From positions 1 to 23,066 of the IMG/VR virus record IMGVR_UViG_3300031631_000029: a stretch of DNA of 23,066 bases. One strand, 5' to 3'. The notes below the pieces were generated by a model. The model had not been told where the DNA came from. It ran no database searches and saw only the letters and a program-made list of their open reading frames with translations. Positions within the stretch are counted from its first letter, which is position 1. The number at the start of each line of letters is the position of its first letter. A program made the position numbers and the translations under genes. Below are positions 6,037 through 22,492 of this stretch, in pieces. Source of the stretch: a virus.

Positions 6037-6227
6037 TGGCATTAGATAAAGCTACTTTAATCACATCCTTAAAAGCTGCTTTTGTTGCTGGAGTAGGCCG
6101 AGATGATGACGCTTTACAGATATCAACTGATATAGCTAATGCAATTGATACTTATATTAAAGGATCTTTATCAGCCGCTACAGCCGGTGGCGCTGCTGTA
6201 ACCCCTGGTAAAACGGTGGTAGCATGA
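6036..6227 (+). CDS. Small protein between gp45 and gp46, unknown role
   Basis: 63 residues beginning MALDKATLITSLKAAF, with a helical body (DIANAIDTYIKGSLSAA) and a glycine/valine-rich tail (TAGGAAVTPGKTVVA). Small proteins of this shape recur in phage structural operons, but I know of no proven function. It is coupled on both sides (TAATG with gp45, ATGA with gp46), which supports real translation and a tail-related role. Confidence 0.75.
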   Translation: MALDKATLITSLKAAFVAGVGRDDDALQISTDIANAIDTYIKGSLSAATAGGAAVTPGKTVVA

Positions 6228-6712
6228 CAACAGACTTAAAAATAAGATGGGATAACGATCTGTTTGAAGGAGATTTCATCTTTGAAGATAATGATTTTAA
6301 TACTGATGAAGGATTAGCTACAGCCGTTTTAATTAGCTGGTTTACTGATCAAAGGGCTTCTGATGAAGATGATATACCTAATGCTGATTCAGAATTTATA
6401 GATAAAAGAGGTTGGTGGGGTGATTTAGTGGACCCTGTAGTAGTGGGTGATGAAATAGGTTCTAAATTGTGGTTATTGAATCGAGCTAAAACCACTCAAG
6501 AGAACATTACAGCCGGTATAGACTACGGTACAGCGGCTTTAGAATGGATGAAAGAAGATGGAATTGTTAAAGATGTATTAGTAACAGGAGAAAAACAAAA
6601 ATATAATAATGATTATATATTAGCCTTACAAGCTGAAATTACTAAGGCTGATGGAAATAAATTGAATATAAGTTTTGATTCAGAATGGTTCGCAACTTTA
6701 GAAGAAGATTAA
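6224..6712 (+). CDS. Baseplate wedge protein (Mu gp46-like)
   Basis: 162 residues. The DKRGWWGD signature (about residues 60-68) after an acidic FEDNDFNTDEGLATAVLISW region marks the Mu gp46 family, related to the T4 gp25 baseplate wedge that nucleates the sheath. It is slightly longer than Mu gp46 and ends in an ISFDSEWF strand. Its stop codon lies inside the left arm of a perfect 12-bp hairpin (6709-6739), which separates it from the inserted phosphoesterase gene. Confidence 0.9.
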   Translation: MTTDLKIRWDNDLFEGDFIFEDNDFNTDEGLATAVLISWFTDQRASDEDDIPNADSEFIDKRGWWGDLVDPVVVGDEIGSKLWLLNRAKTTQENITAGIDYGTAALEWMKEDGIVKDVLVTGEKQKYNNDYILALQAEITKADGNKLNISFDSEWFATLEED

Positions 6713-6739
6713 GTTTGTATCGATACTATACAAACTTAA
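6709..6739 (+). repeat. Perfect 12-bp hairpin overlapping the gp46 stop
   Basis: TTAAGTTTGTAT at 6709-6720 and its exact reverse complement ATACAAACTTAA at 6728-6739 enclose a 7-base loop. The left arm contains the TAA stop of gp46. There is no T-run afterwards, so it is not a textbook intrinsic terminator; an attenuating or processing hairpin, or a protein-binding palindrome, would fit. It stands exactly where the operon is interrupted by the phosphoesterase gene. Confidence 0.65.
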
Positions 6740-6766
6740 AGTGCTGTTAATTGAAGCGGTTATGAA

Positions 6767-7636
6767 ATGACATGGGAAACCGAACAGACCAATGAAACAA
6801 CAGCAACGATTAGAATAGATTTAAAACGCAATAAAGAATGGCAGCAATGGGCTTTATGTTCAGCTGACAGGCATTTTGATAATCCTAAATCAAATAGAGG
6901 GATGCAAAAGCGCCATTTAGATATGGCAAAAGAGAGAGAAGCATTTGTATTAGATGTAGGGGATTGTTACTGCGCTATGCAGGGAAAGTTCGATCCAAGG
7001 GGAAGGAAAAGCGATATAAGAGAAGAAAATAATGTTCCTGATTATTTAGATTCATTAGTTGATTCAGGGGAAAAGTTATTTGGGCCTTATGCTGATTTAT
7101 TCGCTTTACTAGCTGCCGGGAACCATGAAACCAGCATATTAAGAAGACTAGAAACGGACCTTACTAAACGATTAGTAAAACGATTAAATAATTTAGGTTC
7201 TAAAGTTATACAGGGGGGTTATCGGGGCTGGATTAGATTATTGTTTGAGGATGATGGTAAAAGTAAATTTAGGCAATCTTTTAATGTTTACTATACTCAT
7301 GGGTCAAACTCAAACGCTCCGGTAACTAAAGGGATATTAAGAACACAAAGAAGAGGGGTCGTTTATCCTGATGCTCATATATTGTTAAGTGGTCATATTC
7401 ATGAATCATGGGCCTTTCCTATTTATAGATCAAGGTTATCAGAAAAAGGTGTTGAATACACTGATAAACAAATGCATATCCAGCTACCAACTTATAAAGA
7501 AGAGTTCCAGGGGGTTAATGGTGGGTATCATCATGAAAACGAAAGGCCCCCTAAACCAATAGGGGCGTGGTGGTTAAGGTTTTTTTATGAAAGGGTTTCT
7601 AGAAAAATTAAATTTGAAGCAACACAAGCTGAGTAA
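6767..7636 (+). CDS. Calcineurin-like metallophosphoesterase inserted in the baseplate operon
   Basis: 289 residues with every metal-binding motif of the family in order: D-x-H at D34/H36 (SADRHFD), GD at 65-66 (LDVGDCY), GNHE at 118-121, H178 (YTHGS) and GHIH at 209-212. These bind two metal ions and hydrolyse phosphomonoesters or phosphodiesters; the substrate cannot be told. No signal peptide is seen, so a cytoplasmic or virion location is expected. It sits between gp46 and gp47, normally adjacent in Mu-like phages, and follows a 54-base gap with a hairpin, so it is probably an acquired gene. No clear ribosome binding site precedes the start. Confidence 0.85.
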   Translation: MTWETEQTNETTATIRIDLKRNKEWQQWALCSADRHFDNPKSNRGMQKRHLDMAKEREAFVLDVGDCYCAMQGKFDPRGRKSDIREENNVPDYLDSLVDSGEKLFGPYADLFALLAAGNHETSILRRLETDLTKRLVKRLNNLGSKVIQGGYRGWIRLLFEDDGKSKFRQSFNVYYTHGSNSNAPVTKGILRTQRRGVVYPDAHILLSGHIHESWAFPIYRSRLSEKGVEYTDKQMHIQLPTYKEEFQGVNGGYHHENERPPKPIGAWWLRFFYERVSRKIKFEATQAE

Positions 7637-7641
7637 ATAAT

Positions 7642-8736
7642 ATGCCTTTTGACAGACCATCATTATCAGAGCTAGTTACTAGAGCCTTAACGGATATTCA
7701 AACTAGGGTTACTGGTGCGAGTACATTATTAAGGCGTTCTGTATTGCGTGTATTAGCTAAAGTACAAGCCGGTGCTAATCATTTAGTTTATGGTTATTTA
7801 GATTATATTGCTAAGCAAACCTTTGTTTCTAAGGCTGATGAATTTGGGCTAAGGGATCACGGTATAGAATGGGGAATAGATAGGGATGAAGCTGGAACCG
7901 CTTCTGGTAATACAGTAGCTACAGGAACAAACGGTTTAATAATCACAGAAGGGTTAGAATTAAGTGCTGATGATGGTCAGATTTATACAGTTGATGAAGA
8001 TGTAACGGTGGCCGCTGGTATCGCTACTTTAGCCATTACAGCCCAATTAGCCGGGGATGATGGTAATCAATCAGCCGCTACAGTATTAATATTTACTTCT
8101 CCTCCTGATGGGGTTGACGCTAATACAGCGGTTGATAGTGATGGTTTAAATGGTGGTGGAGATATCGAAGACGTTGAGGATTGGCGTAATAAAATATTAT
8201 CTAGAAAGCGTAATCCTCCTCATGGTGGTGCTGAAAATGATTATAAAGTATGGCAGTTAGAAGTTGATGGAGTTTCTAGGGCGTGGGTTTTCCCTTTGTA
8301 TAATGGGGCGGGGACTGTTGGGTGTGCTTTTGTCAGGGATGCTGAGTCCCCAATAGTTCCTTCCGCTTCTGAAATAGCTACTGTACGGGCTTATATAGTT
8401 AGTCATACTGATCCAGCAACAGGACAAACAGTAGGTATTCCGGTTACAGCTCAACCGGGTTTATTTATGATTACGCTATCAACTAAAGCAGTGGATTTAT
8501 CAATATCAATCTATCCGAATACTGTCGCTGTTAATAATGCGGTTTCGGATATAATTGATGATGCTTTAGTAACTTATGGGGGGCCGGGGGAAACGGTTTA
8601 TTTATCACAGCTTCAAAAGGAAATAGCTAGAGCAACTGATTTAGAATATTTTAAAATTACTAGTCCTGTTGCTGATATAGTGGCAGCCCAAACAGAAGTT
8701 CATATTCCTGGCACTTATACTTTTGGTAATTACTAA
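7642..8736 (+). CDS. Baseplate J-like protein (Mu gp47-like)
   Basis: 364 residues, the normal length. Features include the N-terminal PFDRPSLSELVTRALTDI, the DEFGLRDHGIEWGIDRDEAGTA segment, a beta domain with ANTAVDSDGLNGGGDIEDVEDWRNKIL, and the RNPPHGGAENDYKVWQLEVDGVSRAWVFP signature region (about 193-220) of baseplate J. It is the main wedge arm linking the hub to fibre-bearing proteins at the baseplate rim. Its stop overlaps the gp48 start (TAATG at 8734-8738). Confidence 0.93.
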   Translation: MPFDRPSLSELVTRALTDIQTRVTGASTLLRRSVLRVLAKVQAGANHLVYGYLDYIAKQTFVSKADEFGLRDHGIEWGIDRDEAGTASGNTVATGTNGLIITEGLELSADDGQIYTVDEDVTVAAGIATLAITAQLAGDDGNQSAATVLIFTSPPDGVDANTAVDSDGLNGGGDIEDVEDWRNKILSRKRNPPHGGAENDYKVWQLEVDGVSRAWVFPLYNGAGTVGCAFVRDAESPIVPSASEIATVRAYIVSHTDPATGQTVGIPVTAQPGLFMITLSTKAVDLSISIYPNTVAVNNAVSDIIDDALVTYGGPGETVYLSQLQKEIARATDLEYFKITSPVADIVAAQTEVHIPGTYTFGNY

Positions 8737-9527
8737 TGGCCAGATCATCTAAAGATTATTTAAGGCTTTTACAGTCTTTATTACCGAGGGGAAAGGTCTG
8801 GTCTAGGGCTATAGCTGCTAGATTAACTGAATATCTTTATGCTGAAGCTGATGAACTAGCTAGGATAGATGATAGAGCGCAAGTTTTATTAAGGGAAAGA
8901 AACACTTTATATACTACAGAATTAATAGAAGATCATGAATTCGAGTTAGCTTTGCCTGATGAATGTACTAGGGATTATACTCTATCGTTGAATGAACGTA
9001 GGTTATCAGCTAATTCAAAATTAACGGCTACAGGGGGGCAGAGTAAGCCTTATTTCATAGCTATAGCGGCTAAATATGGTTATACAGCCACGATCACAGA
9101 GCATACCCCGGCTTGGTGTGGATTGGCTGCTTGTGGCGATCCTATAGGGCCAACAGCTAATATATTTTATTGGACCCTAACAATATTCACAGATGAAACC
9201 CCTATTATAGCTAGGTGCGGGGAAGCTGCTTGCGGTGATGCGTTACAAAAGGTTTCAGATTTAATTAATACTGTTTTTTGTTTTGCTAATAAATATAAAC
9301 CAGCTCATACAATTCTAAATATAGCATTACAAGGGGCTGGTTTTTCTTCTGGTTTTGATACTGGATTTGATTCGTTACCAAGCCAAACAATAGTTTTCTT
9401 AGGTGGTTTTGACGTAGGTTTTAGTTTTGGGTTTGATATTAACCTATCTAATTATTTAATAACTGAATCTAATGATATTTTAATAACGGAATCGGGTGTA
9501 ATGATAGTAACTGAGGGGACGGTATAA
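8736..9527 (+). CDS. Tail protein gp48-like (DUF2313) with repetitive C-terminal tail
   Basis: 263 residues. The first 200 match the Mu gp48 family: KDYLRLLQSLLPRGKVWSR, a central ELALPDECT segment and two CGxAACGD-type motifs (WCGLAACGD and RCGEAACGD). It sits at the end of the wedge and likely carries the fibre. Beyond residue about 203 there is an extension of GFD-type repeats (SGFDTGFDS, GGFDVGFSFGFD), then three I(L)ITE repeats. This tail probably forms the fibre attachment surface. Very AT-rich DNA here contrasts with the fibre gene that follows. Confidence 0.85.
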   Translation: MARSSKDYLRLLQSLLPRGKVWSRAIAARLTEYLYAEADELARIDDRAQVLLRERNTLYTTELIEDHEFELALPDECTRDYTLSLNERRLSANSKLTATGGQSKPYFIAIAAKYGYTATITEHTPAWCGLAACGDPIGPTANIFYWTLTIFTDETPIIARCGEAACGDALQKVSDLINTVFCFANKYKPAHTILNIALQGAGFSSGFDTGFDSLPSQTIVFLGGFDVGFSFGFDINLSNYLITESNDILITESGVMIVTEGTV

Positions 9528-9528
9528 A

Positions 9529-10155
9529 ATGACAACAAAGTTTAGTAGTTTCACATCAATAGCAGCCGGTGTGGCATTAGATACGGATGAATTAGTTGGT
9601 ATATTTAGTGGGGATAATGGAAGAATCACTCTAACAGATTTAAGGGTTATCCCTGACGGTGGCACAATTGGACAAGCGGCAGGACCGTTGCTCACTTTTG
9701 ACGATACTAATAATTATTTAAAATTAGCGGGTGCATATTTTTTAGTGAATACAACTAATCCAAACTTATTCACTGGCGCTTATGGTCAAACTAAGTCAAT
9801 CGTAACTGGTAATTCATCCGAAACAAACCCTATCAGCAATAATAATGCCTGTTTTGTCATATCAAACACAAACGACACAACAGACAACACAGCGGCCTTG
9901 CATTTTGCGTGGGAAGACTTAGACAACAATGCGCACTACGCAGGGGCGTCTATAGTTGCACAGATGGGAGCAAAAACAGCTGATCAATACCCCTCAACTT
10001 GTAGGCTGCACTTTCTGACTAGTCCAGCCGGGAACAATTCTCCTCAATTACGCATGTCAATAAGTGAGGCTGGCGTGGTTAAGGTTGCATCACTGGCGGG
10101 AATCGGAAGCAGAAACGTGGTTGTAGATGCTGACGGCAACATGTCGGCCCCTTAA
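9529..10155 (+). CDS. Tail fibre protein
   Basis: 208 residues, directly after gp48, where the receptor-binding fibre is expected. The N-terminus (FTSIAAGVALDTDELVGI) looks like an adaptor; the body is beta-rich with many N, T and A residues. It ends in GIGSRNVVVDADGNMSAP, a motif typical of phage fibre shafts where it often precedes a chaperone or tip domain; here it is the terminus. The 3' half (about 9840 onward) is clearly richer in G+C than the preceding gene, a sign of domain exchange. GAGGGG at 9513-9518 is a plausible ribosome binding site. Confidence 0.75.
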   Translation: MTTKFSSFTSIAAGVALDTDELVGIFSGDNGRITLTDLRVIPDGGTIGQAAGPLLTFDDTNNYLKLAGAYFLVNTTNPNLFTGAYGQTKSIVTGNSSETNPISNNNACFVISNTNDTTDNTAALHFAWEDLDNNAHYAGASIVAQMGAKTADQYPSTCRLHFLTSPAGNNSPQLRMSISEAGVVKVASLAGIGSRNVVVDADGNMSAP

Positions 10156-10177
10156 ACAAAACAATACGCAAATAAAA

Positions 10178-12929: not shown

Positions 12930-13238
12930 TTAAGGGTGTTTAAAACGATCTGAATTGTGGTTATGTGCTGGTATGTCTTTTTGGTTTATAAAAACCCCGC
13001 ATTGAGAACAGACAGCTCCTTTCTCTTTAATAATATTACCCCTGAATCCAGAAAAACAATAAATACCGGTTGACTTCCCCGTATAATTCTTAACTGTTAT
13101 TTTTTTATTCTGATCCTTTCTTAAGAAATCAACAGCTTTTTCAAAATTACCCTCTGAAGAGATAAGTGCTTTTTTGCAAGCCATCATAGGCAGCCCGGTT
13201 GCTTTTCTTAATTTACTTACTTCTTGTGCTGTTATCAT
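12930..13238 (-). CDS. EF-Ts N-terminal (UBA-like) domain protein with Cys/His cluster
   Basis: 102 residues. Residues 1-45 ([20 protein letters not shown] then [20 protein letters not shown]) match the N-terminal helical module of elongation factor Ts, which touches the EF-Tu G domain. The EF-Ts core and its TDFV motif are absent. The C-terminal part has C77-x2-C80 and H92-x-H94, a possible zinc-binding group. A strong GAGGAG ribosome binding site lies just upstream on the minus strand. It overlaps the 3' end of the Maf-like gene by 26 bases and is the last gene of that operon. The role is unknown; binding to EF-Tu or to the ribosome is conceivable. Confidence 0.75.
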
Positions 13239-16038
13239 ATATCTCCTCTTTAAGTTTTAATCCCCTTGGATCAAATTCAAATTTACTGCAATACAAATCA
13301 ATAGCCACTTTAGCCTCTTCAATCATATCAGCATTAAAATATAATTCAGCCAACGATTTAAGAAACCAATCATAACTATCAGTCAAGGTAAAAATAGTAT
13401 TAAACAGTTTATCAGCATCAGCCCCGAAACCTACTTGTAAATATACTAAACCTAATTCAAATTTAAACTGAGTGTTATCAGGGTATTTTTCTATTAATTC
13501 CTTATAAGCTTCTATTGATCTATCCTGCATAGCTGCTGCTTCTGTTAGATTACCGTTTGCTTGTTCTATATCCCCTATGCCATGATAAGTGGTGGCTATA
13601 CCCCACTTAGCTTCTGGACGGTCTGGATCAAATTCAGCAGCTTTAAGAAGATAACCTAATGACTTTTGAAAGTTTCTTTTTTCTGGCACCCCTTCTTTTT
13701 GGTTACGGCCTTCTTTATGAGCTAATTCTATAAAGTGATTATATTTAATTATCTTGTCTTTTCCTGATCGATCGTATTCTTCTATTGCTTTGTTTACAGC
13801 GTCTTTACGGTATTCTGAACAATGCAAATCAATACCTATAGCTTTATCTATAAGTTCATCTTTTTCTTTTCCATCCCCCATTAAATATTCAACAAGATTT
13901 TTAGTTTTTAAAATCCTTTTAGCCTCAATCAGATTATGGCCCCAATTACCATTATCAAAATACTCTTCAGCATCATCTAAAAAAGGTTCAGGATTAAGAG
14001 ATTCAAAAGGTTTTAACTCTTCATTATCCTTTAGATATTCCATTTCAATTAACGTTTCTTCATAATCCTTTAATAAGTCTTTAGCCTTGTCATTGCTGGC
14101 CCTCATTACTATTTCATTAGCTTCAATCCTGATTTTCAATACCTCTTTCCCTTCTTTAGTATAGAAAAAGCTTAAATCAGACTTGTTTTTATCATCTAAT
14201 TTATCCTTGATATCCTGTCTAGCTGTACTATAACGGTTTTGTGCAATAGCTTTCCCAGCCCAAAATACTGACATAGCAATCAAAGGGTTTTTATCCACTA
14301 ACTTTTTAGCTGCTATTGTGGTTTCATAATTCTCATTTAATCTTTTGGCAAACTTCTTTCGGTCTACATTCTTTCCTTTTAACCGTTTCAGTAAGACTAA
14401 GGATCGTTGAGACTGTTTAATGATTTCTTTTATATCATCAATATCAGCCTTCATTAGATCAACAGCTTTATTAACTAATTCTTTTCCGTTGTCTACTTCT
14501 GTTAATAGTGGGGTTAGAACTGATTTATTGATAGGAACTTGCAGCATATAGTGTTCTTCAACCCCTTTCAATATATCAACTACATTTATATTTTCATCAG
14601 GGAACAAACCAGTGTACTTTTCAATAACCTCTTCTAAGGTCATAGCTTCAGCCCCTTCCAGCTTAGCCCCACCTTCAGTAGCATTAATAAAAGTAGTATC
14701 AGGTAAGCTTCTGAACATCCTTTCAAAGGTACTAATAAAAGAAACATAACCAGCATTAGTTTTAACTGGTTGTCCATAATACCCATTAACCCACTGTAAA
14801 GGCCCTAACGAGTGTTCACCTTGGATTTCTGACCTAGGATCATCCACTTTCCAAATGATACTATCACTTTGAATATCCACTTTACCGGCTTCATCAGTTA
14901 GCGAATGGTGGGAGCGATCATCATCAGTATAGGCTAAATCCTGTCCTAAAATTATAATAGGATTACAGCCCATATTAACAGCAAGTCCTAGATTCATATG
15001 GCTAACAGAACCACCCTGAAGCAATCCACCCTTATGCATCATAAATTCTGACAGAGTACCCGTTGATGTTCCATCCAGGCTGACAGATATAAATTTCGGC
15101 CCCTCCCAGTGTTTAATAATTGGCTGATATGTACGATTAATGGTAACCAGCGGTATATCTTTAATATCAAGTAAGCCTTTATAATGACCAAAATTAACGG
15201 GACCGAAATCAACAGAGCAAATAAAATCAGGTTTGATATCATAGCTTAAAAGCACCCTTAATGCTTGACCAACCGCAATAATGATAAAGCGTTTCTGAAC
15301 CTCTTTATCAATAAGTAAATGAATATTTTTTTGAAGACTAGGGCCGGTAGAAACTAAGATAGCTGGTTTATCTTTGTAAATATCTTTAAGCTCAGCAACC
15401 CCACGATGCTTAATCACAAAAGGTAAATTAGTGATATCATTTTTAGCAATTAAAGCCCCGGCTCCAGCTATAGTACCCGTATTAGATTTAAGCTGAGTAA
15501 TCAGCATCATTACATGGTTCAGCAAATGGCTATATTCAGCAGGTCTTTTATTAACATAATCCTCAACCGGTAGAAACCATTGTGTTATAGTTTTCCCGGC
15601 TTCAATCAAGGATAGCTGATAGTCTAAATCCTCTCTAGTACAGGCAAACAATAAGCTTCCATTTTTAATAGCTTCAGAATAATCGTTTAACCTTAAAGCT
15701 ATTTTAAGCATATGAAAAACAGGCTCTACAATAACTATAACATGTCTTTTACTCATTTCTTTTATTACCGCTGCTGTAAAATACCCGGTTCCTATTCCGA
15801 AAATAACCGTAGCAGCATCATTATGATAATCGTTTTCCTTAGCCTTGTCCTTTGCTTCAACTATTGGGAAATCCCCATTAATTATAAACGGTTTATTCCC
15901 GGTTCTTATTACCACGTTAGCTCCCATACCAGCTGAAATTTCATCAATCCAGTCAACCCCTTTATCCTCTTCAATTGCCTTAGCAAAATCAGGGGTTCTA
16001 GCTTTAATAGCTTCTAAATTCTTTTTATAATTAGTCAT
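13213..16038 (-). CDS. DUF115/Maf-type glycosyltransferase with TPR C-terminus
   Basis: 941 residues. A Rossmann-like N-terminal part ([12 protein letters not shown], 80-91; VEP, 104-106) leads into the DUF115 (MptE-like) domain at about 205-400, with [38 protein letters not shown] and [11 protein letters not shown]. This is the architecture of motility accessory factors (Maf), which in Campylobacter-type bacteria attach nonulosonic acids to flagellin Ser/Thr. Residues about 740-930 contain helical pairs of TPR type ([40 protein letters not shown]), making it longer than typical Maf proteins. Its operon partners are sugar-acid biosynthesis enzymes, which supports glycosyl transfer over the pterin role of archaeal MptE. 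Confidence 0.82.
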
Positions 16039-16354
16039 TAATTCCTTCTAGTTTTATAAATTTATACGGCTTTAATTCCGAAATACCGTAGCCTATATTT
16101 TCAGTAAAGGATTCTATGAAGTCAGCAAAAGTATTTCCATCCGGTACACAATAAGCACAAATAGTGTTTGATTCAGGAAATGTAGGCAACCAGTCCCCTA
16201 TCTCATCTTGATGAATTAAATAGACTACAACCCCATATTTAGGCGCATAAATACCAAAATGTTCTATTGCTTCTTTTCCACAAATAAAAGAAACAGGCCA
16301 AGGGGGTATTTTTATTTTATCAGTACAATTTACTTCAGTATATTTTTCACCCAT
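16031..16354 (-). CDS. Hypothetical protein in the glycosylation operon
   Basis: 107 residues, not recognised. It contains PPWPVSFICGKEAIEHFGIY near the front, two cysteines close together (ICAYC) and a hydrophobic/aromatic C-terminus, with no signal peptide or membrane span. An AAGGAG site just before the ATG supports the start. It overlaps the Maf-like gene by 8 bases and lies 8 bases after a GNAT gene, so it is part of the same transcript. It may help glycosylation, but nothing in the sequence shows it. Confidence 0.65.
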   Translation of the reverse strand: MGEKYTEVNCTDKIKIPPWPVSFICGKEAIEHFGIYAPKYGVVVYLIHQDEIGDWLPTFPESNTICAYCVPDGNTFADFIESFTENIGYGISELKPYKFIKLEGIND

Positions 16355-16362
16355 CTTGCTCC

Positions 16363-16947
16363 TTAGATTGGTAATTCTTGAAATAATTCTTTAGCTTGTT
16401 TGCCATAAAGAAACATCCACTCTTCTCTTAAAGCCCCTACAAGTAATGAATCATAACGTTTCCCGTTACGTTTAAAATGTTCTTTTTGACACCCCTCTAC
16501 TTGTAAACCAACTTTTTCACATACTCTTTTTGATGCTTTATGATCCGCCACAACGCCACCCCAAATCCGTTCAAAATTAAGCTTATTAAAACCATAATAC
16601 ATCATCATTAAACAGGCTTCAGGAATAATACCTTTACCTGTAAAATCTTTATCTCCTAACATGTAAGCAATAAAAGCGGTTTGATTAATCCAATCTATTT
16701 CTTGAAAGGTTATATTGCCTATATGCTTTCCTGATTCATTATCAAAAATACCGAGTAAAATTAAATTAGTATTAGTGCAAGCGTGTTCATAATAGTCAAA
16801 CATCCGTTTCATATTATTTGGGAAATAAGAACGAGTTGTAAATAAATCTAAAGATAAATCATCCATCCAATCGTAATAATCACCTTTCAGCTGATCTGCA
16901 TCCAAACCATGCAATGATATTCTTTTTCCTACTAGATATTTTTTCAT
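16363..16947 (-). CDS. GNAT acetyltransferase (RimJ/RimL type)
   Basis: 194 residues with the RimJ/RimL order of elements: N-terminal VGKRISLHGLDADQL, a GKHIGNITFQEID strand, the acetyl-CoA pyrophosphate loop at about 107-117 (KDFTGKGIIPEAC) and a C-terminal NFERIWGGVVADHKASKRVC, EKVGLQVEG motif. It would acetylate an amine using acetyl-CoA. In this cassette a PseH-like role (N-acetylation of the 4-amino sugar nucleotide) is plausible, though a second GNAT at 19918-20502 competes for it. It shares an ATGA overlap with the dehydratase gene. A protein N-terminal acetylase cannot be excluded. Confidence 0.82.
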   Translation of the reverse strand: MKKYLVGKRISLHGLDADQLKGDYYDWMDDLSLDLFTTRSYFPNNMKRMFDYYEHACTNTNLILLGIFDNESGKHIGNITFQEIDWINQTAFIAYMLGDKDFTGKGIIPEACLMMMYYGFNKLNFERIWGGVVADHKASKRVCEKVGLQVEGCQKEHFKRNGKRYDSLLVGALREEWMFLYGKQAKELFQELPI

Positions 16948-17921
16948 CCTATCACCTCTTTAATCATTTTGAGTAAGCTTTTACTAGCTTGGTTTTTTGA
17001 ATATTCCCCATCAGAAGTATAAGTCCAATTAGTTGGAGCTTTATCATCAGTTACAGTTTTATAAGAATTGATAACAAACCGGTTTAACCCTTGAACTATC
17101 CTTTCTGATTCTTCAATAGTGGTTAGTGATTCGTGTTTCTTTTCATTTGTTTGTGTTGGGATATGGTTCCAGTTTAATTCCTTTTTATGGAGTTGTTCCA
17201 ACGTAAATACTAAATCTAAAATTGTACTGCTGATCATGTTAGGAATATGGATTCCACTTTTATAAGTTCCTAAAGTAGTGATAATAAATTTACAAACATC
17301 TGGCAAAGTAATCCAGAATCTAGTCATGTTTTCATTAGTAACGGTTAAATCCTCCCCGGCTGCAATCTGCTTTAAAAATATTCCTAAAACGGAACCATTA
17401 GAACCCAAAACATTGCCATATCTAACAGCCATAAACCTTGTGTTTCCATCTCCTGAATAAGTGTTCGCATTAATAATCAAATCCTCAGCGCACTTTTTAG
17501 AAGCTCCATATAAAGTAGTAGGATAAACCGCTTTGTCCGTACTAACTTGTAGGACTTTTTTAACGCCACAATCCAAAGCAGCACTAACAACATTAGAAAC
17601 ACCGCTTACATTCGTTTTAAGGCACTCTAACGGGTCTGAATCGCATACTTCTATACGTTTCATTGCTGCTGCATTAACAACGTAATCAACCCCCTTAAAA
17701 GCCATTGTAAGTCTGTCCCTATCTCTAATGTCCCCTATGATATATGAAATAGGCAAATCAACGTCTTTTAACTCTGTTTGCATATTAAATTGGTTTAATT
17801 CTGACCTAGAAAATATTCTAATTCCTTTTGGTTTTAATGGAATTAATGCTTTTGTTAGGGCTTTTCCTAGAGATCCAGTTCCTCCAGTTATCAATACCTC
17901 TTTTCCTTTAATATCAGTCAT
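16944..17921 (-). CDS. pseB: UDP-GlcNAc 4,6-dehydratase, inverting type (PseB-like)
   Basis: 325 residues, the length of PseB. Short-chain dehydrogenase fold: GGTGSLG nucleotide loop (13-19), FSRSELNQFNMQ (37-48), GDIRDRDRL (63-71), catalytic T128-D129-K130 with Y138 and K142 (STDKA ... YGASK), RYGNVLGSNGSVLG (167-180) and NMTRFWITL (198-206). PseB removes water from UDP-GlcNAc and inverts C5, the first step to pseudaminic acid. The C-terminal Y-T-S...N pattern also fits. The usual PGEKLHE stretch is weaker (NEKKHESL). It overlaps its neighbours by ATGA on both sides. Related dehydratases of other 6-deoxy amino sugars are the main alternative. Confidence 0.88.
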   Translation of the reverse strand: MTDIKGKEVLITGGTGSLGKALTKALIPLKPKGIRIFSRSELNQFNMQTELKDVDLPISYIIGDIRDRDRLTMAFKGVDYVVNAAAMKRIEVCDSDPLECLKTNVSGVSNVVSAALDCGVKKVLQVSTDKAVYPTTLYGASKKCAEDLIINANTYSGDGNTRFMAVRYGNVLGSNGSVLGIFLKQIAAGEDLTVTNENMTRFWITLPDVCKFIITTLGTYKSGIHIPNMISSTILDLVFTLEQLHKKELNWNHIPTQTNEKKHESLTTIEESERIVQGLNRFVINSYKTVTDDKAPTNWTYTSDGEYSKNQASKSLLKMIKEVIG

Positions 17922-18172
17922 TTAAACCTTTTGTTTTGATAAAACGTTTCAAATTCTATATTAGTTAATTCTATAGGAGCTGGATTACATTTTATAGGTC
18001 TATTATCTTTTCCGATAACAGTTAATTTATCCGTGTTTAATAAAACCCCAAAATCACAATAATAACGGCTCCATATTACAGGACCATATTCAGTATCATA
18101 ATATTTATTTGTGGTGTTCGAGGCTTCACAACCAACTATAAACAAGGCTAAAATAATAAGTAAATATTTCAT
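17918..18172 (-). CDS. Small lipoprotein
   Basis: 84 residues. It starts MKYLLIILALFIVGCEAS: one basic residue, a hydrophobic core and a lipobox-like IVGC with Cys15 as the lipidation site. The mature part of about 70 residues has two further cysteines (YYCDF and IKCNP), possibly a disulfide in the periplasm. The function is not recognised. Phage lipoproteins of this size include superinfection-exclusion factors and outer spanins; the lack of a proline-rich stretch or partner argues against a spanin. It is embedded in the glycosylation operon with an ATGA overlap. Confidence 0.7.
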   Translation of the reverse strand: MKYLLIILALFIVGCEASNTTNKYYDTEYGPVIWSRYYCDFGVLLNTDKLTVIGKDNRPIKCNPAPIELTNIEFETFYQNKRFK

Positions 18173-18173
18173 T

Positions 18174-18431
18174 TCAATTTATATCCTCTGGGTGTAAAAA
18201 TACGGTTTCAGTAGCTTCAATTAATACCGGTGGCTGTGAGAATCCACTTAATACTCTAAGCCATACATAACCCTTTTCAGCAACATGTTTTTTCTCTTCA
18301 TCACTTAATTCCCATTTTGAAATACAAACTTTACCATCACAATAAACCGGCAAAGCCCCACACTCTTCATCAGTCATATTATCAGGCTTGCCTAGTAAAT
18401 GAGTTTGTTCTGGAAATTCCATCCATTTCAT
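18174..18431 (-). CDS. Conserved-looking small phage protein, unknown role
   Basis: 85 residues. The pattern KPDNMTDEECGALPVYCDG, a short charged helix, then VWLRVLSGFSQPPV resembles small phage proteins I have seen annotated only as hypothetical, in which W-L-x-V-x-S-G-x-x-Q-P-P-V is the recurrent end. No catalytic or membrane feature is seen. Its ATG overlaps the stop of the 46-residue gene upstream (ATGA), and the lipoprotein starts 2 bases after its end. Confidence 0.65.
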   Translation of the reverse strand: MKWMEFPEQTHLLGKPDNMTDEECGALPVYCDGKVCISKWELSDEEKKHVAEKGYVWLRVLSGFSQPPVLIEATETVFLHPEDIN

Positions 18432-18568
18432 ATTTCCCCCGTTTCACATTTAGCAGCGTAAAAAGTTTGGTTTAATCTTGAAAGCTCATCACCTAATCTA
18501 TCAGCTGTTACCATGCCGTAATAAGTCCAGCTAGAACTACTATCAACTTTAATATATAATCTTATCAT
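18428..18568 (-). CDS. 46-residue protein, unknown
   Basis: A short minus-strand frame reading MIRLYIKVDSSSSWTYYGMV, then a helical TADRLGDELSRLNQTF, ending CETGEI. It is convincing despite its size: an AAGGAGG ribosome binding site stands about 7 bases before the ATG, the start overlaps the previous stop by ATGA (18565-18568), and its own stop overlaps the next start by ATGA (18428-18431). It therefore fills exactly the gap between two genes in the operon. No family is recognised. Confidence 0.65.
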   Translation of the reverse strand: MIRLYIKVDSSSSWTYYGMVTADRLGDELSRLNQTFYAAKCETGEI

Positions 18569-18849
18569 CCTAAAGCCCTCCTTGAAAAGTATTGACAGCT
18601 AGTGTTTAATTGAGCTGGATAAAGTTGTGGTGTAAGGTCAATAAATTCAGGAGCTTTTATCAGACAAATATGGATAAAAGTGTTTTTCAATAACTTGATA
18701 TTATCATGGTTATATTTATAATGATTACAAATTAAACAACTATCACAAGCGTTTGCTTCATCTTCTATTACCCAATCAGCTGTCTTTTTCCCTCTACGGT
18801 TGATAGCGGTTAACGTGGCTTTTATAACACCTTCAGTTTTAAATATCAT
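18565..18849 (-). CDS. Cysteine-cluster protein, unknown
   Basis: 94 residues. A basic N-terminus (INRRGKKTADWVIEDEAN) is followed by C35-x2-C38-x2-C41, then single cysteines at 62 and 85. The spacing suggests a metal site (zinc or iron-sulfur), but no known family is recognised. It ends in a basic tail (SRRALG). It overlaps the upstream gene by 11 bases and the downstream one by ATGA. Confidence 0.6.
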   Translation of the reverse strand: MIFKTEGVIKATLTAINRRGKKTADWVIEDEANACDSCLICNHYKYNHDNIKLLKNTFIHICLIKAPEFIDLTPQLYPAQLNTSCQYFSRRALG

Positions 18850-19105
18850 TAATAACCCTAAATTTATGAGAAGGTATTAGTAATAATTCCCCTTCATCAG
18901 TTAAAATAATAGCTTCAAATATAGTGGTGGAAGGTATTCTACTATCAGGACCGGTTATAGTTGATTCCCTTAATTCTATTATTTTTCCTTTTCCTTTTAT
19001 AACTGTTTTTGATTTACACCAAGTTGAAGGTTGAAATAATTTACTAGGTAGGTATTCAGTATCTAATAATTCAACAGTTTTATTTTTAAATACAGATTCA
19101 CTCAT
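18839..19105 (-). CDS. Hypothetical protein
   Basis: 88 residues, not recognised. A lysine-rich middle (CKSKTVIKGKGKIIELRES) is followed by a beta-rich region (TTIFEAIILTDEGELLLIPS). There is no membrane span or signal peptide. The ATG follows the stop of the NeuB-like gene directly, with a GAGGGGG ribosome binding site inside the 3' end of that gene, so it is translated from the same mRNA. Confidence 0.6.
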   Translation of the reverse strand: MSESVFKNKTVELLDTEYLPSKLFQPSTWCKSKTVIKGKGKIIELRESTITGPDSRIPSTTIFEAIILTDEGELLLIPSHKFRVINDI

Positions 19106-19921
19106 TTATCCCCCTCTTAAACCGGTTTCAGGATCAGCTTTATATTTCCTATCTTGTAATTTAATAATTTCATCCCAATTATCAGTGCCTAGTGCTTTAT
19201 ATAAATTTTTAGAAGCTTCTATCATTAATATCGCATGTCCAGGGATCCAGCTATGGCTATATTCTAATCCTTTTTTATCCCGAAAATCTAAGTGAAATTC
19301 TATAACTTTAGCTCCTAAAGCTATTGATGCGTAAATAGCCATAGGGTGTTTTGTATGATCAGAATACCCATTAATAAAAGGATTAGATTTAATAATATTT
19401 AGATTACAATCTTCAACCATAGCCGGATACTTACTAACACAATGAAGGATATCTATAATAGTAGGTTCATTTAAAGTAAATGGCAGATTAGAAATTATTT
19501 TCATAATCTCCATATTATCACTTTGCCCGGTGCTAAGCATCAACCTTTTACCAGTTAAATAACATTTTTCAATTAAATCAAATAAGCTAATCTCAAAACT
19601 AGCTATCTTAAAATAATCCACATAAGATTCTACCTCTTTCACATCATCTTTATCAAATACTGATAAGCCGAATAATAAACCGTACTTGTGAGCATGAAAA
19701 CATAGGGGCTTAACCCATTCTAAAGGCAATTCACGCCATCTAGCGGCCACTATTTCCTTAACCATACTAGGATGCCATAGCTTATCAGCTTTAAAATATT
19801 GAAACTTAACCCCCGTACAGCCTATTTCAGCAGCGGTTTCTATTAATTCTAAAGCCCTATCATAACTAGGGCCGTCTTTAGTGGTGTAGTTTGAACCTAT
19901 TTCAGCAAAAAATTCAATCAT
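19106..19921 (-). CDS. NeuB/PseI-family sugar acid synthase lacking the SAF domain
   Basis: 271 residues forming the TIM-barrel of sialic-acid-type synthases, which condense PEP with a 6-carbon amino sugar to give a 9-carbon nonulosonic acid. Motifs: FFAEIGSN (4-11), VKFQYFKA (38-45), FKIAS (104-108), LSTGQ (129-133), LHCVSKYP (159-166), GYSDHT (185-190) and KVIEFH (205-210, usually KVIEKH), then HSW at 223-225. The C-terminal antifreeze-like SAF domain of full-length NeuB (about 340-350 residues) is absent; the protein ends DPETGLRGG, as in short relatives. It overlaps the GNAT upstream by ATGA. PseI, LegI, NeuB or SpsE-type specificity cannot be separated by eye. Confidence 0.85.
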   Translation of the reverse strand: MIEFFAEIGSNYTTKDGPSYDRALELIETAAEIGCTGVKFQYFKADKLWHPSMVKEIVAARWRELPLEWVKPLCFHAHKYGLLFGLSVFDKDDVKEVESYVDYFKIASFEISLFDLIEKCYLTGKRLMLSTGQSDNMEIMKIISNLPFTLNEPTIIDILHCVSKYPAMVEDCNLNIIKSNPFINGYSDHTKHPMAIYASIALGAKVIEFHLDFRDKKGLEYSHSWIPGHAILMIEASKNLYKALGTDNWDEIIKLQDRKYKADPETGLRGG

Positions 19922-20502
19922 GATAAAGCTCCCTGTATTTCTTCCCAGTTATACCCATCTTTATTTTGTTTTTGTTTCCATTCTGATTGAAGGATAGAGC
20001 CCACTGTTGAAGTATAATAATCACCAGCTTTAAAATGTCGTTGCCTTAAATAACCTTCATATACAAATCCTTGCTTCTCCCAGAATAAATGGTTATCAGT
20101 TGTATTAATAACCTCGATGAAAATACAATTAAGATTAAAACCTAAAAACGCTAATTCTAAAAGAGCTTTAATAGCTGCCGTCCCGTATCCTTTTTTGTGC
20201 GCTTTAGGATTAATTAATAATCCCATTTCAGCCGTTTTATTAACTGGATCAATTTTATCTAACCCACAATAACCGGCTAAATAAGCATAAGTGTCTTTAT
20301 ATGAATTTCCCCTAATTAATTTATCATCAATATAAATAAAATAATACTTCTCACTAGACCCAAACCCATTAACCCATTTGGTTTGGGAATCCCCTTTAGC
20401 GGTTAAATCATTAGACCGTAAGCTGATTAGGGTTTGATTTCTCCATTCTGCTATCAAGTCTAATTCTGGTTGCTTGTTGCTCATCTTTTCTAATTTGATC
20501 AT
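19918..20502 (-). CDS. GNAT acetyltransferase, candidate PseH role
   Basis: 194 residues. Order: IAEWRNQTLISLRSND, an AGYCGLDKIDPVNKTAEMGL strand pair, an acetyl-CoA loop at about 116-124 (HKKGYGTAA), FIEVINTTDNHLFWEKQGFV and a C-terminal RQRHFKAGDYYTSTVGSILQ. The AEWRN opening and the final layout recall PseH and related sugar-nucleotide N-acetyltransferases. It lies directly upstream of the NeuB-like gene (ATGA overlap), which favours this GNAT over the one at 16363-16947 for the pathway step. An AAGGAG ribosome binding site supports the start. Confidence 0.8.
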   Translation of the reverse strand: MIKLEKMSNKQPELDLIAEWRNQTLISLRSNDLTAKGDSQTKWVNGFGSSEKYYFIYIDDKLIRGNSYKDTYAYLAGYCGLDKIDPVNKTAEMGLLINPKAHKKGYGTAAIKALLELAFLGFNLNCIFIEVINTTDNHLFWEKQGFVYEGYLRQRHFKAGDYYTSTVGSILQSEWKQKQNKDGYNWEEIQGALS

Positions 20503-20714
20503 TTTTCCATCTCCTTGCTTAGAGCTTTAAAAGCCAATCCTATTACGCTAACACAAAACACTTCTAACTTTCCTTTATTATATAAAATAGCTGGATCAAT
20601 TTTTTTAGGTTTCCAGCTCCACACCTTTCCGTTTGATAAATGCAGATGACAAATAATTTCATCTTTAGTTACTAACTCTATTTTATCAACCTTGATTCCG
20701 TTTTTATATATCAT
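20499..20714 (-). CDS. Hypothetical protein, first gene after the TTTAAA-rich gap
   Basis: 71 residues from the ATG at 20714. A GTG at 20720 is in frame, but it lies within the GAGGTG ribosome binding site that best serves the ATG, so I chose the ATG. The protein has a beta-like front with ICHLHLSNGKVWSWKPKKID and a moderately hydrophobic end (VFCVSVIGLAFKALSK). The function is not recognised. It overlaps the GNAT start by ATGA and opens the tightly coupled run of genes down to 12930. Confidence 0.55.
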   Translation of the reverse strand: MIYKNGIKVDKIELVTKDEIICHLHLSNGKVWSWKPKKIDPAILYNKGKLEVFCVSVIGLAFKALSKEMEK

Positions 20715-20940
20715 TTTCACCTCAAAAAATAATCGTTTAAAGGGGGCTTAAATCGATTTGTTTTAAACCCACCTCTTACTATTAGTTGAAAAAGTTTTTA
20801 AAACCTCAACCCTTCTATACCCGTTTAAACTATAAAACTTGTTAAACTTTAAAACTCAATCTAGTTAATGTAATCGTATTAAGAAACTTGTTATTGGATT
20901 TAAAGGTATTTAAAACGCTGTTTAAGGCTATAAATTAATT
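20715..20940 (-). other. AT-rich intergenic region with repeated TTTAAA elements
   Basis: This 226-base gap is the largest in the window. TTTAAA occurs seven times on either strand reading (starting at 20736, 20762, 20797, 20824, 20848, 20899 and 20909), several inside wider palindromes such as GTTTAAAC (20823-20830), GTTTTAAAC and GTTTTTAAAAC. It is the natural place for a promoter and operators controlling the operon from 20714 down to 12930. No sigma-70 pair with good spacing on the minus strand convinced me, and I see no gene in it. Confidence 0.5.
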
Positions 20941-22275
20941 TCAATTACCCTTTTTTATGGTATGGTTTAAGCATTGATGCAGCTCAGCACGATTTGTCCA
21001 AACCTTGTTAAATGCCTCAATAATATCATCTAAATCCATTCTGGAAGTTGGGGGGGCTAAATATAAATGTAAAAATAATTCATCTTTCCATAGCTTTTCA
21101 ACATTTGGTAAAGGGTAAATAGGATCATAAGTAATAAATGAAGTTCTTTCAACCGGAATATATCGATCAGCAAAAATAGGCATACGATAAAGCGGTTTAA
21201 TATAACCGTTTCCCATTCTAACCCCTTCAGATTCTCTTCCTCTCATTGGCATTAATTCAGCCTTAACCGCATTAATAAAAACATCCCTGTGGATTCCTTC
21301 AGCTGCTTCTTGATCATATAAAAACGGCTGGCAATAGTATGTATGAGTGCAGTTAGGTCTGGTTATTCCGGCTTCAATAGGCGATAAATATTCTAAAGCG
21401 TTAGATAGATATTCAGCATTTTCCTGTCGTTTACCAATAAAGAAATCCAGCTTTTTCAACTGCTCTTGAACTATAGCGGCTTGGATTTCAGTCATTCTCA
21501 TATTGAAACCCCACAATTCTTTTCTTGAATCTGTTAAAGGGCTTGTCTGCCAATCAGCTATATCATTAACAACCGCTTCAGCATGATTTAAAAGGAAACG
21601 GCAACGTTCTGCTAGATTATCATCATTAGTGGTTATCATACCACCTTCGCCCGCTGTTAGATGCTTACCTTGAGTAAAAGAGAAACAACTGATATGGCCT
21701 AGATTACCCGTAAATTGTCCATATTCATTAGAAGCCCCAACAGCTTGAGCTGCATCTTCTATTACCCATAATTCATGCCTTTCAGCTATTTCCATAATTT
21801 GTTCACTAAAAGGTTGCCCAAAAATATCCACGGCAATAATAGCTTTAGTTTTATCAGTGATCTTTCTTTCTACATCTTCAGGATCAAGACAAAAATAATC
21901 TTTTTCCACATCAGCAAAAACAGGAGTAGCCCCCCACAATAAAGGGGCTGTAGCTGAACAAGTCATAGAGTAAGGGGTTACTATGACTTCATCCCCTGGT
22001 TTCAATCCTATAGCTCCACAAGCAACGTGCAAGGCAGAAGTACAACTGTTAATAGCTATACTATGTTTATTACCGAACTTTTCAGACCAAGCTTTTTCTA
22101 ATGCTTGAATTTTAACCCCGCCTCTGTACGCACTAGCGTTCCCCCTGTAACCGCTTAACATCTGAGTATCTAACACTCTTTGTGCTGCTGCTTTCTCTTC
22201 TACTCCTATTCCAGCTTGATTAGGAAATAGTGTGCTTCTAACCGGTGTTCCTCCAAATAATGCTAGTTTACTCAT
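20941..22275 (-). CDS. DegT/DnrJ/EryC1/StrS aminotransferase (PLP), candidate PseC role
   Basis: 444 residues from the ATG at 22275, which has GGAGG about 8 bases upstream; the in-frame TTG at 22290 is a poorer choice. Fold-type I PLP enzyme: SCTSALHVACGAIGLKPGDE (77-96), VIEDAAQAVG (171-180, PLP-contacting Asp174), FSFTQGKHLTAGEGGM (198-213, Schiff-base Lys204) and NMRMTEIQAAIVQEQL. It would transfer an amino group to a keto sugar, as PseC does after PseB. The LFGGTPVRS opening and the length are closer to StrS-type cyclitol or deoxysugar aminotransferases than to short PseC proteins, so the exact substrate is open. Confidence 0.87.
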   Translation of the reverse strand: MSKLALFGGTPVRSTLFPNQAGIGVEEKAAAQRVLDTQMLSGYRGNASAYRGGVKIQALEKAWSEKFGNKHSIAINSCTSALHVACGAIGLKPGDEVIVTPYSMTCSATAPLLWGATPVFADVEKDYFCLDPEDVERKITDKTKAIIAVDIFGQPFSEQIMEIAERHELWVIEDAAQAVGASNEYGQFTGNLGHISCFSFTQGKHLTAGEGGMITTNDDNLAERCRFLLNHAEAVVNDIADWQTSPLTDSRKELWGFNMRMTEIQAAIVQEQLKKLDFFIGKRQENAEYLSNALEYLSPIEAGITRPNCTHTYYCQPFLYDQEAAEGIHRDVFINAVKAELMPMRGRESEGVRMGNGYIKPLYRMPIFADRYIPVERTSFITYDPIYPLPNVEKLWKDELFLHLYLAPPTSRMDLDDIIEAFNKVWTNRAELHQCLNHTIKKGN

Positions 22276-22276
22276 A

Positions 22277-22492
22277 TTAATAACCTCCAAATTTACGCAT
22301 TAAATCAATAAATTTCCACATTTTTTTATCATCAGTTACTATCTCTTTCATAGCATCTATTAAATCTTTATTTTTACTGTTATTACAAACAGGACAAGTT
22401 AATAGATCCATTTCAACAGCTGAAAGGGATTTAACTCTAAATTCAGATTTACATGCCTTACAAATTATACTTTCTGTTTTTCCTTCCATCAT
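22277..22492 (-). CDS. Zinc-ribbon protein
   Basis: 71 residues from the ATG at 22492, whose ATGA overlaps the upstream stop; a longer frame from 22516 would overlap more and lacks a ribosome binding site. Two CxxC knuckles (IICKACKSEF and LTCPVCNNS) about 20 residues apart form a classic zinc ribbon, followed by a charged helical tail (LIDAMKEIVTDDKKMWKFID). It may bind nucleic acid or protein; no specific function is recognised. A GGGGG run before the start may act as ribosome binding site. The aminotransferase starts 2 bases after its end. Confidence 0.65.
   Translation of the reverse strand: MMEGKTESIICKACKSEFRVKSLSAVEMDLLTCPVCNNSKNKDLIDAMKEIVTDDKKMWKFIDLMRKFGGY

Follow-up and report, generated by a model that had tools for sequence, protein, structure and literature searches.

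An accessory metallophosphoesterase gene with a predicted DP1-like fold, inserted between gp46 and gp47 in a Mu-like phage lineage

A gene for a complete two-metal phosphoesterase was found as a clean accessory insertion between gp46 and gp47 in a Mu-like phage lineage. The stretch of DNA that was analysed (hereafter the window) comprises 23,066 bases of the IMG/VR virus record IMGVR_UViG_3300031631_000029, which may be a fragment. A preliminary description of this DNA had placed a complete phosphoesterase with all metal ligands between these two genes, and this was confirmed: ORF 6767-7636 on the plus strand encodes, from an ATG, a protein of 289 amino acids with the full ligand set. The reading of its function that we favour, with an evenly balanced confidence, is that the product is an accessory, late-expressed nucleic-acid phosphodiesterase made of a single DP1/Mre11-like domain, and not a part of the baseplate.

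The gene lies in a Mu-like tail operon on the plus strand that encodes, in this order, the tail tube (PF10618), the tape measure, a DNA_circ_N protein (gp43), gp44/P, a small protein (of membrane type as judged by eye), gp45, a 63-amino-acid protein, gp46, the enzyme, gp47 and gp48. Within the 23,066-base window no terminase or lysis genes are close to it. The enzyme gene and its flanks show the following features.

6224..6712, plus strand: gp46, baseplate wedge, left flank (PF07409, 1.5e-27; phrog_180, 6.3e-34)
6709..6739, plus strand: perfect hairpin (12 bp, loop of 7 nt), which overlaps the gp46 stop codon
6713..7641, plus strand: stretch of 929 nt from the gp46 stop to the gp47 start (the closest relatives have 3 or 46 nt here)
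6767..7636, plus strand: metallophosphoesterase gene, 289 amino acids, phrog_7339-like, predicted fold closest to PolD DP1
6866..6874, plus strand: motif I, D34-x-H36 (62/62 members)
6962..6964, plus strand: motif II ligand, D66 of GD (62/62 members)
7121..7126, plus strand: motif III, N119 (ligand) and H120 (catalytic-type His) of GNHE (62/62 members)
7298..7300, plus strand: motif IV ligand, H178 (62/62 members)
7394..7402, plus strand: motif V, H210-x-H212 (H210 in 61/62, H212 in 62/62 members)
7642..8736, plus strand: gp47, Baseplate_J, right flank (PF04865, 2.6e-52)

The ATG at 6767 is the one sensible start of the ORF; the frame is closed upstream of 6755. The metal ligands of the window protein are D34, H36, D66, N119, H178, H210 and H212, and the catalytic-type H120 is also present. 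Its match to PF00149 was weak (16.6 bits, below the gathering cut-off of 21.5), and a search of its own record with this model was empty because the protein scores below the reach of the model. Nevertheless, its identity as a phosphoesterase is settled by the PHROG match, the alignment of 62 family members and the fold. Both the five motifs with the two-metal ligands and the predicted fold (Z 14-18 to solved members) place it in the calcineurin-like metallophosphoesterase superfamily. The lack of an evident ribosome binding site had earlier been put forward as a peculiarity of the gene. The site is indeed weak (GAAG, 10 nt upstream of the start), but gp46, gp47 and gp48 have weak sites at most, and this is normal for the operon. 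GC3 and codon use of the enzyme gene were inside the range of the 13 other tail-module genes that were compared, although only one of these 14 genes had a lower codon score.

Loci encoding relatives of gp46 and gp47 were collected and the gap between the two genes was measured. This yielded 126 rows with gp46, 117 of which also had gp47, some contigs being represented twice (e.g. L056 and L150). The enzyme was present in four of these 117 rows, all of them copies of one contig, IMGVR_UViG_3300031603_000339, which is identical to the window over 8099/8099 bases (L001) and may not be an independent sample. The three closest other contigs found (L148, L149 and L150) showed the same gp46-gp47-gp48 order without the enzyme. 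In L148 gp46 was 67% and gp47 74% identical to the window proteins, in L149 68% and 74%, with 46 nt between the genes in both contigs, and in L150 the identities were 68% (for the part of gp46 that is on the contig) and 66% with a gap of 3 nt. Relatives with gp47 at 44-52% identity had estimated gaps of -11 to 14 nt. A search of eight relatives with the enzyme family profile was empty; the profile matched six of six genomes elsewhere, all known carriers. The 42-kb contig L152 (gp46 56% identical), which ends before gp47, had no family-profile match anywhere. The absence of the enzyme from the closest relatives indicates that the gene is an insertion in this lineage. The earlier suggestion of a moron gene is thus supported at this junction, and universal presence of the gene as a structural component was not found, the three closest relatives that were identified lacking it here. 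With their empty site for comparison, this is a clean case of a conserved baseplate operon that has received an enzyme cassette. No relative of gp46 or gp47 was found at the other enzyme-carrying loci, a comparison that was confined to these two baseplate genes.

In several distant rows gp46 and gp47 were separated by 232-809 nt without a match to the enzyme. Five rows had gaps of 232-249 nt, and the gap measured 335 nt in L208, 346 nt in L163/L164 and 809 nt in L187. From the gaps in these last loci (L187, L163/L164 and L208), the junction may be open to other inserts.

The gap had also been described as carrying a hairpin. The hairpin is real, with arms TTAAGTTTGTAT-7 nt-ATACAAACTTAA that form a 12-bp stem, but it overlaps the gp46 stop codon and is not part of the insert. 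It is the sole perfect stem of at least 12 bp (loops 3-10) in the window, compared with a mean of 0.025 in 40 Markov-resampled windows. Folding of a 96-nt region gave a z of -2.07, 9 of 200 shuffles folding equally well. A related dyad was present at the same place in the 46-nt gaps of L149 (TTTGTATTGATTCGATACAAACTTAAA) and L148 (TTTGTGTTGAATCGATACAAACTTAAA), both without the enzyme gene. Since the dyad is kept in these contigs, the hairpin belongs to the gp46 end. It is older than the insertion, and the enzyme gene entered between the hairpin and gp47. For a 9-pair version of the hairpin 26 of 27 cells pair, without compensatory change, and covariation analysis gave no support. A function as terminator was unsupported as well: no T-run follows the stem, and the hairpin was absent from the list of a terminator scan that demands three G-C pairs, the stem having two.

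Elsewhere in the window the minus strand carries, at 13213-22290, a sugar cassette of the nonulosonic-acid type. It encodes a Maf/MptE-like protein of 941 amino acids with TPR matches (PF01973, 2e-45), two GNAT acetyltransferases, a Polysacc_synt_2 dehydratase (3.9e-80), a NeuB-family synthase (8.1e-42) and a DegT aminotransferase (2.6e-83), and it may decorate a surface protein of the host or the phage with a sialic-acid-like sugar. In L149, which is without the enzyme, a similar gene with TPRs was recognized by eye from its C-terminal part, downstream of the tail genes (9410-10165, minus strand); the Maf-like gene may be a trait common to this phage group. At 12930-13238, also on the minus strand, a 102-amino-acid protein is encoded with an N-terminus like the elongation factor Ts N-terminal domain (PF25025, 5.9e-7; 29.8 bits, below the cut-off of 33.2), followed by a tail that bears cysteines and histidines.

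The predicted model of the window protein (pLDDT 92.5, pTM 0.91) was compared with solved structures. Foldseek listed a PolD entry first, with modest TM-scores of 0.50/0.35. With VIA-align the best match was DP1 (8ppt; Z 18.2 over 226 residues at 3.1 A, residues 1-289 being spanned), followed by the human polymerase delta B subunit (Z 16.6), LpxH (15.3), an archaeal phosphodiesterase (15.3) and Mre11 (14.3). The alignments with DP1 and with the polymerase delta and zeta B subunits started at residues 1-3, those with two polymerase alpha entries at 18 and those with LpxH and Mre11 at 18-28. When the phage family was compared with reference alignments by hhalign, values of 92.6% over 183 columns (DP1), 41% over 93 (SbcD) and 1% over 89 (LpxH) were obtained from alignments that were built from genomes and contained 20, 7 and 9 rows, respectively, a depth that may favour DP1; the nine LpxH sequences had been chosen by their GNRD motif. 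In the controls, in which these three known families were compared among themselves, the values were 93.7-96.6%. This is better than the match of the phage family to any of them, and the phage family therefore stands apart from all three. The predicted fold is DP1-like, ahead of LpxH and Mre11, and the profile comparison agrees with this. A sequence search of the solved structures revealed no relevant match with either a 3-member (E 0.79) or a 62-member profile (E 0.24). The closest entry in a library of viral structures was H9YSH0 (33% identity, TM 0.91), which is unnamed in the tables.

A scan of IMG/VR with a three-member profile gave 202 confirmed viral loci, 80 of which were used further, and 62 members that are 29-56% identical to the window protein were aligned. 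D34, H36, D66, N119, H120, H178 and H212 were invariant in 62/62 and H210 was present in 61/62. M71, G73, D76, R78, Y93, Y243, K244 and P262 were likewise invariant across the aligned members, some of these positions falling in a loop of low confidence (residues 71-80, pLDDT 58). Exact patterns taken from motif V and from the PTYK and MQGK stretches were required in the scans, so that members lacking them were missed. Conservation at these three places is partly due to selection because they served as search patterns; motifs I to IV were not among the patterns. All 62 members matched phrog_7339 at E <= 0.001 (the window protein with 34 bits), the label of which, DNA repair exonuclease, is an annotation and not an assayed function. 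PF00149 matched 30 of the 62 at E <= 0.01, NCBIfam produced one chance-like match in one member, and the PADLOC models, a library of defence systems and not of anti-defence genes, matched none. Neither Pfam nor NCBIfam has a specific model for the family. In the tree the window protein had no well-supported sister, its nearest relative being L058 (56%).

The family was represented by 12 loci in a genome collection with one genome per species (84,980 species), as against the 202 in IMG/VR, and a plasmid search returned no family match. Among 50,697 GenBank phage records one full-length match was found, in Rhodobacteraceae phage LS06-2018-MD07, together with two partial matches that are both records of one phage, Bacillus phage Staley. 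LS06-2018-MD07 was also the sole GenBank phage match at E <= 1e-5 when four other family members were used as queries, and no mycobacteriophage among these records matched the window protein at E <= 1e-3. This is a large viral enzyme family, mainly on viral contigs and nearly absent from the GenBank phage records. As far as the accessible text of the literature on phosphoesterases in connection with endolysin, terminase, baseplate or anti-defence goes, no published description of it was found. Phosphoesterases of unclear function are mentioned for marine OM43 phages, where one, to judge by the ORF numbers, adjoins a peptidase M15 gene (PMC8024684; PMC10580990), and for Geobacillus phages (PMC10459684).

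Clustering at 90% identity grouped 91 loci into 60 clusters, and their neighbourhoods were labelled on the basis of crude longest-ORF gene calls, the labels being spread by clusters. The labels first assigned to the 60 clusters were endolysin (10), TerL (6), DUF5675 (5), portal and TerL (3), portal (2), TerS (1), baseplate (1, the window) and other (32). Profile matches took L099 (TerS and TerL), L116 (TerL) and L132 (endolysin) out of this last class, and L003, in which the endolysin gene is the fourth gene upstream, was counted as unclassified. The resulting counts were packaging or portal 14, endolysin 10, DUF5675 5, baseplate 1 and unclassified 30. An endolysin gene on the same strand at most three genes away was found in 10/60 clusters. 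The clearest arrangements on one strand were TerS-enzyme-TerL in L057 and L099, endolysin-enzyme-TerL in L061 and TerL-enzyme-portal in L076 and L091. In L116 the enzyme is followed by TerL. TerL was on the opposite strand in 6 of the 14 terminase-or-portal clusters. Seven unclassified loci were picked by eye, hence non-randomly, and six of these (L137, L114, L112, L111, L145 and L140) had a gene of DNA or nucleotide metabolism or a methyltransferase gene at most three genes away: a Dda-like helicase in L137, a RusA-like resolvase in L112, a ParB-like protein and an exonuclease on the opposite strand in L114, and nucleotide kinases or methyltransferases among the neighbours in L145 and L140. 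L067 had an integrase on the opposite strand. An exclusively late context of the family was rejected on account of the DNA-metabolism-type neighbours in six of the seven loci chosen by eye. Late timing is not a family rule because the contexts are mixed, with TerL on the opposite strand, DUF5675 and genes of replication or modification type.

In 12 loci (five clusters, one representative of which was tested) the gene immediately preceding that of the phosphoesterase encoded a DUF5675-type protein, for example at L002:3651-4061. This hints at a DUF5675 function that is linked to the phosphoesterase.

In the phage of the window, inserted between gp46 and gp47, the gene would be read from the baseplate operon and hence late in infection, and the enzyme would be translated like its operon neighbours. 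The product would be a two-metal phosphoesterase with one domain, which resembles Mre11 and the exonuclease domain of PolD DP1 in its build, and would cut phosphodiester bonds in nucleic acid, for example in the processing of DNA ends around packaging or in the clearance of host nucleic acid before lysis. Late expression is proposed because the gene sits in the baseplate operon, and a nucleic-acid phosphodiesterase is the most economical account because an intact two-metal site is combined with a DP1-like frame; it is in this sense that we infer late expression here, catalytic activity, a nucleic-acid substrate and the role. The superfamily also holds protein phosphatases, nucleotidases and lipid hydrolases, and the shared fold alone leaves the substrate unfixed. 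The DP1-like fold and the recurrent neighbours from packaging, lysis and DNA metabolism make a nuclease role directly testable.

Other roles have to be weighed against this accessory late nuclease. The protein could be a counter-defence enzyme that destroys a host nucleotide signal (a cyclic nucleotide or an oligonucleotide) or otherwise blunts immunity, which we consider rather doubtful. An accessory phage enzyme with a patchy presence within its lineage would fit such a role, and Gp48 of mycobacteriophage A10ZJ24, another phosphoesterase, is described as counter-defensive and as damaging host DNA (PMC12287305). However, this Gp48 is expressed early according to the same source, whereas the gene studied here is in a baseplate operon and many family members are next to packaging or lysis genes; moreover, the search with the window protein found no mycobacteriophage record at E <= 1e-3. 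By analogy with the HNH endonucleases that play this part elsewhere, the DP1-like family might consist of packaging nucleases that trim or resolve DNA ends for the terminase, encoded by a cassette that moves between gene slots and that here would have entered the baseplate operon. This has a slim chance of being right, lowered as it is by the six terminase-adjacent clusters with TerL on the opposite strand and by the several members among DNA-metabolism genes. PF01844 (HNH) was absent at E <= 0.001 from 14 of 15 terminase- or portal-adjacent records, L116 having one, and from 20 of 24 records overall, all of these being fragments considered without a comparison set, so that these counts carry no weight for the idea that the enzyme takes the place of HNH at the terminase.

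A late envelope or lysis helper, i.e. an LpxH-like or other phosphatase whose substrate would be a lipid-linked or cell-wall precursor and which would act shortly before lysis, has similarly slender prospects. The same-strand endolysin gene within three genes in 10 of the 60 clusters and the high structural match to LpxH (Z 15.3) speak for it, but the family has GNHE and not the GNRD of LpxH, the LpxH profile matched at 1%, and other members have packaging or DNA-metabolism genes as neighbours. The placement of the gene inside a baseplate operon would suit a virion-borne baseplate component or a tail enzyme acting at cell entry, as had been considered in the preliminary description. This is very improbable, since the closest relatives keep the same run of gp46, gp47 and gp48 without the enzyme and relatives of gp46 or gp47 occur at no other enzyme locus. 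That the ORF is an assembly chimera or arose by chance is scarcely credible. The record is a viral contig of a metagenome collection; however, a second contig, possibly not an independent sample, is identical over 8099/8099 bases, homologues that are 29-56% identical have intact ligands, and the codon use is in the range of the neighbouring genes.

Among known systems, phage terminase-associated HNH endonucleases are a case of a nuclease-type gene linked with packaging (PMC5304195); their fold is unrelated, so that the analogy is one of function only. Mycobacteriophage A10ZJ24 Gp48 is a phage phosphoesterase of the same superfamily but the product of an early gene, which is reported to damage host DNA and to silence defence genes (PMC12287305). 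The full-length homologue of LS06-2018-MD07 (WBK39924.1, 35.6% identity) is annotated as hypothetical, and its gene is downstream of an endolysin gene with three annotated genes in between. Motif III of LpxH is GNRD; the phage family has GNHE instead, with H120 in 62/62. Mre11/SbcD shares the fold (Z 14.3) and the GNH[DE] motif, and an SbcC/Rad50 partner was unrecognized among the 30 window proteins scanned, the record possibly being a fragment. The closest likeness in predicted fold is to DP1 of PolD, the archaeal 3'-5' proofreading exonuclease. The DP1 set comprises D360, H362, D404, N450, H497, H560, H562 and the catalytic H451 (PMC10721889), some of these residues being numbered differently in a 2016 paper (PMC4996933). 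The seven ligand types and the catalytic histidine occur in the same order in the phage protein, N119 and H120 being the equivalents of N450 and H451 (PMC10721889). In contrast to DP1, the OB domain of which comprises residues 249-338 (PMC4996933), the phage protein of 289 amino acids, in which about 25 residues precede the first core strand, has no room for an OB domain. Identity to DP1 is about 13%, the gene is a phage gene, and a DP2 partner was unrecognized in the 23-kb record, which is possibly a fragment. The phage protein may thus work like the nuclease domain of DP1, yet it is not to be filed as a DP1.
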